Position numbers and translations under genes: made by a program. From NCBI GenBank assembly GCA_021793275.1, contig JAJYTC010000013.1, forward strand, positions 1-46,421: a stretch of DNA of 46,421 nt. Reading direction: 5' to 3'. The stretch is from Deltaproteobacteria bacterium (GTDB taxonomy: Bacteria > Desulfobacterota > Syntrophobacteria > Syntrophobacterales > Syntrophobacteraceae). This document shows, one piece after another, positions 33,370-36,224 of the stretch; within the stretch, counting starts at the first letter, position 1, and the number at the start of each line of letters is the position of its first letter. The notes below the pieces were generated by a model that was not told the DNA's origin, searched no databases, and was given only the letters and a program-made list of their open reading frames with translations.

Positions 33370-33568
33370 TTTGAAATTCTACTTGAGTTCCGGATGACGA
33401 ACAACCCTTTTTGCCGTGATTTTTCCTGGAACCCTCGCCTGATCAGCGCTCTCCTTCTATGTGGCGTCGCCTCGACACTGGCCGCCAGGGGCATCCAGTA
33501 TTTTTTCAAACTGTAGTTACATTTCTATCCATTTTGCTTGCTGTGGGGAAAATCTGCCAGCCTGCAAC
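33370..33568. other. Intergenic region between cbiA and the BrnTA promoter
   Basis: About 200 bases without a credible gene. A short ACTGG/CCAGT stem followed by T6 lies near 33477-33507 on the plus strand. There is no gene upstream for it to terminate, so it may be a relic of rearrangement at this junction. No cobalamin riboswitch core or B12 box is recognisable. Confidence 0.5.
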
Positions 33569-33599
33569 TTGACAGAGTTAGAATTTGTATGTACAATTT
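33569..33599 (+). promoter_or_regulatory. Near-consensus sigma70 promoter with overlapping dyad, upstream of brnTA
   Basis: TTGACA at 33569-33574, a 17-base spacer, and TACAAT at 33592-33597 make a near-consensus promoter. An 8-2-8 inverted repeat, AATTTGTA-TG-TACAATTT (33582-33599, 7 of 8 matches), overlaps the -10 element. BrnT/BrnA pairs are autoregulated by the BrnA-containing complex, so this dyad is a natural operator candidate. The leader to the brnT start is about 165 bases. Confidence 0.65.
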
Positions 33600-33640
33600 T
33601 CTCATGAATCCATGTTCTGTGACAAAGATAGGGCGAAGGC

Positions 33641-33742
33641 ATGGCGTTATCTTACTGGCTGGTCTGGACAGCTCCAATGAGCGATCTCATGATCCTGGCC
33701 GCCTGGAGGACCATTCTGGGGATAATGGGAGGAGGACGCTGA
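33641..33742 (+). CDS. Possible 33-residue hydrophobic leader peptide
   Basis: An ATG-to-TGA frame of 34 codons lies inside the leader between the promoter and brnT. It encodes a mostly hydrophobic peptide rich in Trp, Leu, Ile and Met (MALSYWLVWTAPMSDLMILA at the start). No good ribosome site is visible and it may be chance. It ends just after the GGGAGGAGG sequence. I list it only because the leader is unusually long. Confidence 0.2.
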   Translation: MALSYWLVWTAPMSDLMILAAWRTILGIMGGGR

Positions 33743-33769
33743 CATGCAATTTTGTATGGACACCAGAGC

Positions 33770-34051
33770 ATGAGATTTGAATGGGATGAGGAGAAGAATC
33801 AAATCAACATTACTAAACATGGCTTCGATTTCGCGGACGCCCGGGAAATTTTCGAGTCTGAGGTGCTGACTGCCCTTGATGACAGCGAGGATTATGGAGA
33901 AGATCGTTGGATCGGGGTTGGAACTTTTCGAGGTAGAACAATGATAGTCGCCTTTACCGAGCCGGGCGATGATCTGGTGCGCATAATATCGGTCAGAAAG
34001 GCAACGAAAAACGAGAGGGAAGCTTATGAAAAAACAATCCTCAGAAACTGA
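33770..34051 (+). CDS. brnT: BrnT family type II toxin (ribonuclease)
   Basis: 93 residues from ATG 33770; a TTG six codons earlier is unlikely. RFEWDEEKNQINITKHGFDF is the family N-terminus, and RIISVRKATKNEREAYE is the C-terminal active-site strand and helix. BrnT toxins are small ribonucleases of RelE-like fold neutralised by BrnA. The gene overlaps brnA by 26 bases, the common toxin-first order of this family. It lacks its own strong ribosome site at this start. All key blocks look intact. Confidence 0.92.
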   Translation: MRFEWDEEKNQINITKHGFDFADAREIFESEVLTALDDSEDYGEDRWIGVGTFRGRTMIVAFTEPGDDLVRIISVRKATKNEREAYEKTILRN

Positions 34052-34397
34052 CCTGAAACGCATTGACGCAATGAGAGACGCCGATATCGACACCTCCGAC
34101 ATTCCGCCGCTTGGCGAAGATTTCTTCAGAAAAGCTACTGTGTGGAAGCGTGAACGAAAGGTTTCCATCACTTTGCGGGTGGACAAGGAGGTTGTGGAAT
34201 GGTTTAAGTCCCAGGGAAAAGGCTACCAGTCGCTTATGAACGCGGTGTTGAAAGCCTACGCGAAGGACCAAACCGGCCGAGACCGGCACGACGATTCACC
34301 CTTCGACTGCTTGAGGGAAAAGGGGCTTATTTCGCAGGCCCATGCCCAAAGGGACAGCATCATGGAGAGGCGCTCCGTGTGGCCTATGGTTGCGTAG
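34026..34397 (+). CDS. brnA: BrnA family antitoxin with C-terminal extension
   Basis: 123 residues. The ribbon-helix-helix-like DNA-binding part is VSITLRVDKEVVEWFKSQGK followed by GYQSLMNAVLKAY, as in BrnA. The N-terminal part (DIDTSDIPPLGEDFFRKA) is the toxin-binding segment. A tail of about 35 residues after the helix (DDSPFDCLREKGLISQAHAQ and on) is longer than usual and resembles degradation tails of other antitoxins. It should bind BrnT and repress the operon. The next gene starts 9 bases later. Confidence 0.9.
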   Translation: MKKQSSETDLKRIDAMRDADIDTSDIPPLGEDFFRKATVWKRERKVSITLRVDKEVVEWFKSQGKGYQSLMNAVLKAYAKDQTGRDRHDDSPFDCLREKGLISQAHAQRDSIMERRSVWPMVA

Positions 34398-34406
34398 GGG
34401 ATAACA

Positions 34407-36224
34407 GTGCAAACCACTACATTCTTCTCTTATAAGGGCGGCGCCGGTCGTTCGCTGGCCGTGGCGAACGCGGCAGGCTATTTGTCGCAACTGGGATTTA
34501 AAGTTGCCGTGCTCGATTTTGACCTGGAAGCCCCAGGGCTGAATTATAAATTTAGCAGGGTTGAGGACGGCTCTCCCGTTGAAGTTAAACTCGGTATTGT
34601 CGACTACCTGCATCGCATTGTGGTTGACAAAGAAAAGCCTGATTCAATAAAGAAGTACACGGTTGAAATTGATCTTCTCGGAAACGATTTTCCCCCTGTT
34701 ATTTTTATACCGGCCGGGGGTGCCCCATCGGTTGAGTATTGGCGTAAGCTCAGCAGGCTGGACTGGCATGAGCTGTTTTATACTCCCGGGGCGCTTGGCG
34801 TCGAGATATTCCTCGATTTGAAGCTCCGTATCGAAGAGGAGATATCGCCCGATTTTTTGTTAATAGATTCGCGTGCCGGCATTACAGAAGTCGGCGGAAT
34901 TGCAACGACCCTCCTTCCAGACGCTGTCGTATGCCTGTTGCTTAACAATCGTGAAAACATCGAGGGCGCCAGGGTCGTCCTCAGGAGTTTGCAGAGCCAG
35001 GCCAGTACGAAGCCGATCAAGGTCATCGTGACTTTAAGTCGAATCCCGATGCTAAAAGATAACGAACCCGAGGCAAACATCCTCAACAATATAAAAAACC
35101 TTCTCATGGAGGGTGCTGAAGATCAGGAGGATTCACTCTTCGTCGATCAGATTTTTGTACTTCATTCGGAGCCCGCTCTCCAGATGCGTGAAACCCTCCG
35201 AGTGGGGCGCGGGTTCAGTCTGGACGAATCCGTATTGCTGCGGGACTATCTTCGGCTGTTTTCGCAATTCATCCCTGCTGGAGCGATTGAGGCCAGATTG
35301 GACCGGCTAATCAGAGTGGCAAAAGATAAAATATGGGACGATCCGGATGCGGCCACAAAGCAGATGGAGGAAATAGCGGAATTCCATATCGCCCCACAAA
35401 GCCTTATAGAGCTTCTTAAATTCTATGTTCTCAGGACGGCGAGGGGGGCGAAGGTGTTAAAAACGGCCCAGAAATACTGGGAGCTGACAGGAAACGCCGA
35501 GGAACCGATTCTGTACGCAGTCGTGAAGGCAAATTTTGAGGTTCAACGTAGCTGGAGGCCAAAGGAATGGGAGCCGGATTTACATTTCATTGAGGCCGTT
35601 TGGCTGGGCACGGCAGACATTGACCCGCTTCTGGGCAATATGCTGGGTGAATCGTGCCATGAAAAGGGCGATATCGCTGCCGCCTTGCGTGTATATCGGA
35701 GGCTGCTCGATCTTAACCTGGATGTAACGCAGGAGCCATTTAAAAACACTCCTGCCAGGTACCTGAGCGTTCTGCGAAGGAGCAATTTAATTGAGGAGTG
35801 CATAGCTGTCATAGAGCAATTTAAACCAGCCCTGCGGACTAACATCCCTTTTGTGCTCGAATGGGCCTATGTAACTCTTATGGCGAGCGCCGATGCCTAC
35901 GTGTCCGAGCTTAGTCAAGATGACACGCTTTTCACCCTCTTTTCAATTGATCCCGAAACCGCCAATTCCATTGCCACGATGGCCGACAAAGGAGATTTCG
36001 CCATCAAGCATTTGGAAGTATTAATGAAAGAAAATCGCCGCTCAACACATCAGTTGGCTCGACTCGGTAACATGCTGCGAGAATCGGGTCATGAGACGAC
36101 TTTTCAGGATGCGCTGAAATCACTTGTCTCCGAGCAGGTGAGGGAAGAAGTCCAGCTAAATATGCAGCGGCTTTCCCCCATGGTGCGAAGAAGATCAATA
36201 AGCGACCGTCGTCCGGATTTTTGA
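34407..36224 (+). CDS. KGGAGRS-type MinD/ParA-like ATPase with helical C-terminal domain
   Basis: 605 residues, start GTG 34407 after GGGGATAACA. FFSYKGGAGRSLAVANAAG is a deviant Walker A in which the usual second lysine (GK[ST]) is arginine; VAVLDFDLEAPGL follows. The Walker B-like strand is DFLLIDSRAGITEVGG at about residue 150. The second half, from about residue 330, appears all-helical with TPR-like segments (HEKGDIAAALRVYRRLLDLN). KGGVGR-type relatives are known from predicted bacterial conflict systems; the partner here is unknown. The 9-base gap to brnA implies one transcript. It may sense or scaffold rather than partition DNA. Confidence 0.8.
   Translation: MQTTTFFSYKGGAGRSLAVANAAGYLSQLGFKVAVLDFDLEAPGLNYKFSRVEDGSPVEVKLGIVDYLHRIVVDKEKPDSIKKYTVEIDLLGNDFPPVIFIPAGGAPSVEYWRKLSRLDWHELFYTPGALGVEIFLDLKLRIEEEISPDFLLIDSRAGITEVGGIATTLLPDAVVCLLLNNRENIEGARVVLRSLQSQASTKPIKVIVTLSRIPMLKDNEPEANILNNIKNLLMEGAEDQEDSLFVDQIFVLHSEPALQMRETLRVGRGFSLDESVLLRDYLRLFSQFIPAGAIEARLDRLIRVAKDKIWDDPDAATKQMEEIAEFHIAPQSLIELLKFYVLRTARGAKVLKTAQKYWELTGNAEEPILYAVVKANFEVQRSWRPKEWEPDLHFIEAVWLGTADIDPLLGNMLGESCHEKGDIAAALRVYRRLLDLNLDVTQEPFKNTPARYLSVLRRSNLIEECIAVIEQFKPALRTNIPFVLEWAYVTLMASADAYVSELSQDDTLFTLFSIDPETANSIATMADKGDFAIKHLEVLMKENRRSTHQLARLGNMLRESGHETTFQDALKSLVSEQVREEVQLNMQRLSPMVRRRSISDRRPDF

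Follow-up and report, generated by a model that had tools for sequence, protein, structure and literature searches.

Toxin–antitoxin modules with a third component are known mainly with SecB-like chaperones. The BrnT family consists of RNase-type toxins, and in BrnA proteins the N-terminal part neutralises the toxin and the ribbon-helix-helix (RHH) domain represses the operon. In toxin–antitoxin–chaperone (TAC) modules, a short C-terminal sequence named ChAD, carried by HigA or MqsA, recruits SecB and is transferable (PMC5105189). In CmdTAC, a phage capsid protein is reported to draw the chaperone off, which leads to degradation of the antitoxin and release of the toxin (PMC11618068), and the lambda tail protein is described as acting likewise on HigBAC (PMC11980606). 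The present analysis concerns a stretch of 46,421 nucleotides (nt), hereafter the window, from contig JAJYTC010000013.1 of a Deltaproteobacteria bacterium of the Syntrophobacteraceae (assembly GCA_021793275.1), in which brnT, brnA and the gene of a KGGVGR-motif MinD/ParA-like NTPase follow one another. It is given about an even chance that this locus is a tripartite toxin–antitoxin variant in which the NTPase occupies the slot of SecB and is bound to a C-terminal tail of the antitoxin.

A first-pass annotation, made from the nucleotide sequence alone, had named the three genes, and the profile scores bear this out. BrnT passes Pfam PF04365 with 94.4 bits (cut-off 34.5; 5.2e-27; model positions 1-77 of 77), its PDB relatives being 7vd7 and 3u97 (B. 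abortus BrnT). BrnA passes PF14384 with 59.9 bits (cut-off 26.1; 3.1e-16; residues 26-79), and a PDB sequence search with it returned nothing under E 0.23. The ATPase, with the KGGAGRS motif at residues 10-16, passes NCBIfam NF047398, 'KGGVGR-motif variant AAA ATPase', with 148.4 bits (cut-off 90). With both domains over their cut-offs and the toxin gene first and adjacent, brnT and brnA form a predicted type II toxin–antitoxin pair. The two genes overlap by 26 nt, and the 9-base gap described between brnA and the ATPase gene was confirmed, as were the predicted promoter with an operator-like dyad and the position of the genes as an island between cobalamin and radical SAM genes. The three genes are one unit behind a single predicted promoter, as had been proposed, and their layout suggests a single joint transcript.

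A genome scan with the ATPase returned six loci, of which the closest (L043) lies in a Syntrophobacteraceae metagenome-assembled genome (MAG) of the same genus as the window, at a contig position equal to G409:C157. The gene order there is MqsR (PF15723, 71 bits), MqsA (PF15731, 80.9 bits) fused to a BrnA domain (PF14384, 48.6 bits) and then the ATPase, 74% identical to that of the window, with no brnT. From BrnA codon 43 to the end, 59 of 81 residues (73%) are identical in the two loci, including the tail ending SVWP. Since RHH, tail and ATPase are common to both loci and the toxin half is different, it is the RHH–tail block, and not the toxin, that is kept with the ATPase. The dN/dS of the ATPase between the two loci is 0.087, which, together with the values for RHH and tail in Table 1 and with dS near saturation, indicates that the block is under purifying selection. 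The expectation of the first-pass annotation that such ATPases would be found again beside brnTA therefore stood in part: the RHH–tail of BrnA occurs again in the same genus next to an ATPase with 74% identity, and other toxin–antitoxin pairs too have ATPases of this class as neighbours; no second intact brnT–brnA–ATPase operon was found, the window being the sole close case of brnTA plus the ATPase, against mqsR and an MqsA::BrnA fusion in L043.

Within MqsA, L043 shares 48% identity with L145 and L146, 42% with L143 and at most 34% with the other listed MqsA loci. L145 and L146, both among the 30 control MqsA loci, are MqsR–MqsA–SecB (TAC) operons from other genomes of the phylum, with SecB scoring 64.2 and 62.4 bits. 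In a tree of 32 sequences (22 of the 30 control MqsA loci, which were listed out of 143 genomes with a match, and 10 others), the L043 MqsA joins L145 and L146 with support of 87/83, which is not strong. Two further arrangements were seen among MqsA antitoxins: a 138-amino-acid (aa) gene, matching no Pfam family, that immediately follows an MqsA with a C-terminal extension (L143:862-1275), and an MqsA-family antitoxin followed by an overlapping gene for an IrrE/ImmA-type peptidase (L163:163-1633; PF06114), perhaps another third partner.

The occurrence of the tail was followed in several samples. In the order sample (39 genomes), 21 BrnA matches were found; those of the window and of G409, which is the L043 contig, reach position 123, and the other 19 stop at or before 101. 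In the phylum sample (395 genomes), there were 69 BrnA matches in 54 genomes, and the window alone extends past 109. Full-length ATPases occur in the order sample at the same two places as the tailed BrnA (G000, the genome of the window, and G409; 2 of 39 genomes). Thus, tail presence goes with the ATPase in the samples searched; the A4 profile was built from two sequences, so that diverged tails could be missed. A tblastn search of 72,556 plasmid records with the tail alone returned nothing at E up to 1, and a scan of the viral_contigs set with BrnA returned two loci, both aligned only within residues 7-83. One plasmid record of Endozoicomonas (H63), among the best 15 matches of the BrnA tblastn, seemed to be a tailed BrnA (cover 3-123) and was rejected: it encodes an 84-aa BrnA, and the alignment had continued beyond the stop. 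Two further records, outside these 15, also cover at least 80% of the query.

The ATPase itself was modelled with AlphaFold (9 sequences; pLDDT 77.9, pTM 0.61). In the predicted structure, residues 1-293 adopt a MinD/ParA fold (MinD 3r9j, Z 20.3), and the stretch from about 291 to 590 consists of helices only, this helical half being barely probed by the structure comparison. Pfam TPR matches were below the cut-off, and a PDB sequence search gave weak MinD/ParA matches only. K10, which is the first lysine of the deviant Walker A motif, D37, D39 and D154 are invariant, and the P-loop lysine is replaced by arginine (R15) in all 11 aligned sequences. Nucleotide binding is thus plausible, and hydrolysis is doubtful because of this replacement. 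In other conflict systems, MinD/ARA-like (MinD/ParA-like) domains are described as inactive (PMC7159879). No tblastn match to the ATPase was found in phage records.

According to the reading favoured here, the NTPase would be the obligatory partner of the antitoxin: the BrnA C-terminal tail would hand the antitoxin to, or let it be held by, the NTPase encoded immediately downstream, which would bind the tail and keep the antitoxin folded or protected, so that BrnT stays off. If the NTPase were missing, titrated away or switched, for instance by a phage protein acting as the signal and possibly in a nucleotide-dependent manner, the antitoxin would fail and BrnT would halt growth, which may give the module a role in defence. 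What is directly at hand are the genes themselves, the shared RHH–tail–ATPase block with a swapped toxin, the tail–ATPase link in the samples and the purifying selection. The first-pass annotation had supposed that the ATPase senses infection or plasmid entry and frees BrnT; by analogy with SecB in TAC, the antitoxin tail would rather point to a partner that handles the antitoxin.

The likeness to TAC (HigBA–SecB, MqsRA–SecB, CmdTAC) extends to several features: the gene order toxin, antitoxin, third partner; an exchangeable toxin family; an MqsA in L043 that is closest to SecB-linked MqsA; and an antitoxin C-terminal extension missing from two-gene relatives, the tail occurring only in the window and L043 among the order and phylum matches. 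However, the third gene of the window encodes a NF047398/MinD-fold NTPase with a helical half, not a SecB-like protein, and the tail sequences differ. The module would most likely work like TAC without being a TAC member, since SecB is absent. Compared with canonical brnTA of the Brucella abortus type, the window shares passing Pfam scores, the toxin-first order, overlapping genes and an operator-like dyad on the promoter, whereas its BrnA has a tail of about 39 aa and the NTPase gene comes next; the canonical BrnA of L165 (Endozoicomonas) stops directly after the RHH. No paper in the open-access literature searched, as far as its text was accessible, describes an ATPase of the KGGVGR or MinD/ParA type as the third component of a module with an MqsA or BrnA antitoxin.

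A second set of loci was found on plasmids and IMG/VR contigs, where family ATPases of about 620 aa stand directly behind MqsA-family antitoxins (L032, L112, L034, L046, L047, L048 and L049). The antitoxins of L032, L046 and L048 pass the Pfam MqsA cut-off, and those of L034 and L049 score below it; the L112 antitoxin is annotated as MqsA, and that of L047 is 73% identical to that of L048. An open reading frame (ORF) of about 120 aa lies upstream of the antitoxin in six of the seven, with Pfam matches absent or noise only in the four tested. The model of the L048 toxin (pLDDT 69.7) has MqsR 3hi2_D as its best solved match (Z 8.2, root-mean-square deviation 2.6, 81 aligned; next Z 4.8), which suggests that the toxins of this set are mostly MqsR-like. 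Like L043, these loci would combine MqsR-fold toxins and MqsA antitoxins as MqsRA modules do, but with C-terminal extensions and the NTPase instead of a two-gene operon. F-x-L occurs within the last 30 residues in 7/7 of the antitoxins versus 3/30 control MqsA loci, and F-x-L-[RK] in 6/7 (L046 has FELF) versus 1/30; these counts are given without a probability, and the second-set sequences are related to each other. L132, cut at a contig end, also carries an F-x-L tail. Such an ATPase was present in none of the 30 control loci, for which the downstream sequence comprised 466 to 1617 nt except in L142, which had none. L128 falls inside the second-set clade (97/91) and lacks both the tail and a downstream ATPase; neither its antitoxin nor that of L165 has a C-terminal extension. 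The joint loss in L128, a single case, is as expected if a tail without its partner is a liability. On a Fibrella plasmid (L129:2085-3436), CBASS genes adjoin a small protein with a similar SFH ending and its neighbour, an MqsA-like antitoxin whose C-terminal domain is long.

Thirteen loci of full-length type were compared in all (window, L043, L003, L004, L042, L032, L112, L033, L034 and L046-L049). In every one the chosen ATPase start is overlapped by the upstream gene or lies no more than 15 nt from its end, and in nine of the 13 the upstream gene is a recognisable antitoxin, at -1 to 9 nt. The upstream pairs of L003 and L004 (a 274-aa-type and a 202-aa gene) and of L033 (76- to 85-aa and 221-aa genes) gave no meaningful family score, and L042, whose pair was outside the family scan, carries the same 274-aa-type and 202-aa pair. 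The small gene of L033 looked HicA-like from its sequence; Pfam gave no match, and this identity is not claimed. The 274-aa-type and 202-aa gene pair before full-length ATPase relatives (L040:3562-4988, L042:2353-4163), whose hosts are two Deltaproteobacteria MAGs and one Planctomycetaceae MAG, is itself a candidate new toxin–antitoxin pair. When the window and L043 tails were compared with the ends of the 202-aa proteins, Smith-Waterman p values were 0.003 and 0.002 for L004, 0.25 and 0.17 for L003 and 0.21 and 0.27 for L042; a profile test of the tail against the whole L003/L004 protein gave p 0.0018, and a tail hidden Markov model did not pick the L003/L004 proteins among 2563 ORFs.

Like other loci of the NF047398 family that were examined, the window has a small variable gene directly upstream of the ATPase; it differs in that this gene is a bona fide antitoxin, whereas elsewhere the partner is helix-turn-helix (HTH), HEPN or unknown, and the C-terminal part is of another kind, TIR for example. 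The more distant KGGVGR ATPases follow an HTH or HEPN gene or contain TIR, so that the layout of a small gene plus an ATPase is not confined to toxin–antitoxin pairs. Full-length ATPases are present in 2 of 55 genomes of the class sample (G000 and G409) and in at least 3 of 395 of the phylum sample (G000, G005, G042), where the search (A3) scored three candidates per genome, so that absence is no proof. Searches within the order or class of two genomes gave no full-length ATPase beyond those already known. The genome of the window has a second KGGVGR-type ATPase (G000:C221:3251; L002:1498-3633), a 786-aa open frame 38% identical over 2-215, which lies directly behind a 239-aa HTH-like gene and has a weak Csx1/Csm6 (CARF+HEPN) match over 236-372.

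Other explanations share much of this evidence. With the same parts and the same contact but the opposite sign, the NTPase could stay idle until phage or plasmid DNA or protein is sensed, and then strip or sequester BrnA via its tail and thereby free BrnT. This is considered unlikely, even though it would also account for the tail–ATPase linkage. KGGVGR ATPases, including the N-terminal domain alone of that in the window (97 bits), match the PADLOC models PDC-M28B, and other KGGVGR loci adjoin a HEPN gene, hsdR, BREX pglX or TIR genes; yet these models are candidates, not tested systems. PADLOC gave no match for BrnT or BrnA. Additionally, in the close analogue TAC it is the third protein that restrains the toxin. 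If losing an activator did no harm, it should easily be lost, yet L128 dropped the tail and the ATPase together, a weak argument from one case. That brnTA is an ordinary pair and the NTPase an unrelated defence protein, placed under one promoter without functional contact, is very unlikely. Toxin–antitoxin pairs and defence genes do cluster in islands, and the RHH–tail block with the ATPase is found in only one other genome. However, this block was held through a toxin swap, with equal divergence and purifying selection, the tail correlates with the ATPase, and most full-length-type loci have a recognisable antitoxin just upstream.

ParA-type ATPases are driven by partner peptides. A partition-like or DNA-bound complex would make the RHH antitoxin a ParG/omega-like partner, whose tail with conserved basic residues regulates the ParA-like NTPase, and the NTPase would tune operator binding or stabilise a mobile element instead of acting on the antitoxin. 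The MinD/ParA fold and the RHH partner are both present, the NTPase domain of the predicted structure also matches pSM19035 delta ParA (2oze, Z 15.9), and MqsA-type relatives occur on plasmids and near integrases. RHH–ParA neighbours were tabulated in 2009 (54 cases) and ascribed to larger conserved gene associations (PMC2701414). Nevertheless, the second Walker lysine is R15, as in the other aligned members, the insert is chromosomal, lying between cob and radical SAM genes, the 30-40 kb ORF list of its region contains no replication genes, and the operator dyads of the window and L043 differ although RHH and tail are shared, which makes this explanation distinctly improbable.

The reading of the NTPase as the partner that guards the antitoxin has to be set against several points of its own. 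The RHH–tail–ATPase block is found in one genome besides the window, and R15 in the P-loop may abolish hydrolysis. SecB is a chaperone, and this NTPase family is not known to act as one. The F-x-L tails of the second set have no detectable homology to the window tail (SVWP), and the F-x-L and L128 comparisons involve few, related sequences. In L047, the stretch examined contains no toxin ORF of at least 60 aa. In 4 of the 13 full-length-type loci (L003, L004, L042, L033), no known toxin or antitoxin family stands upstream, and a likeness of the L003/L004/L042 tails to that of the window is doubtful.

In the sister genomes G413 (L100) and G415 (L101) the insertion site is empty, window positions 33411 and 36213/36214 being separated by just 18 and 19 nt, and the G+C content of the insert (50.4%) is lower than that of its flanks (57.9% and 54.1%). 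At the same site, G414 (L099) has a 128-nt segment with 86% identity to the brnA start (codons 1-43, the part that overlaps brnT), followed by unrelated sequence; this remnant is of brnA only, without the ATPase. A brnTA-bearing insert at this site, with or without the ATPase, thus probably predates the split of G000 and G414. The last ATPase codons (window 36195-36224) resemble the flank of sister genome G411, so that the reading frame may end in host DNA.

Regarding the control region, five promoter-like sites were counted versus 2.7 expected from shuffled sequence. On the + strand of the 46-kb window, no site other than 33585-33596 itself matches the dyad TTGTAtgTACAA with at most one mismatch. 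In the window as in L043, the leader lies between two operator-like dyads; those of L043 are placed at the promoter and directly before mqsR. A simple scan of the region found no terminator-like site on the + strand, a structured leader RNA had no support (z -1.05), and Rfam and tRNA scans of the window gave no matches.

Table 1. Coordinates of the module, its control elements and the subdivisions of brnA in the window.
Feature	Position	Strand	Basis or remark
brnT, toxin, 92 aa	33773..34051	+	PF04365 match
brnA, antitoxin, 123 aa with C-terminal extension	34026..34397	+	PF14384 match
RHH part of BrnA, codons 43-84	34152..34277	+	78.6% identical to L043 MqsA::BrnA fusion, dN/dS 0.078
BrnA C-terminal tail, codons 85-123, candidate ATPase docking tail	34278..34394	+	66.7% identical to L043, dN/dS 0.19
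KGGVGR-motif variant MinD/ParA-like NTPase, 605 aa, GTG start 34407	34407..36224	+	NF047398 match, predicted structure
Predicted sigma-70-type promoter TTGACA-17-TACAAT	33569..33597	+	11/12 consensus positions
Operator-like dyad TTGTA-TG-TACAA (TTGTAtgTACAA), exact, over the -10	33585..33596		
Imperfect second dyad copy, 2 mismatches, directly before brnT	33752..33763		
Three-gene cassette, ~2.8 kb, flanked by cobyrinate synthase-like gene and radical SAM gene	33412..36212		Ends are alignment limits, not mapped junctions

As a tentative generalisation, possible rather than probable, KGGVGR NTPases with an all-helical C-terminal half may be a second, widespread guardian of antitoxins, on which unrelated toxin–antitoxin pairs (BrnT/BrnA, two MqsR/MqsA lineages and perhaps others) have been made dependent via transferable tails. 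If true, this would represent convergence on the addiction known from SecB and ChAD, together with a nucleotide-controlled release of toxin on infection. CmdTAC and HigBAC indicate that the third partner can be a phage sensor. An NTPase in the position of SecB would mean that this slot is open to quite different proteins, and one branch of the KGGVGR ATPases, so far uncharacterised, would thereby acquire a function.

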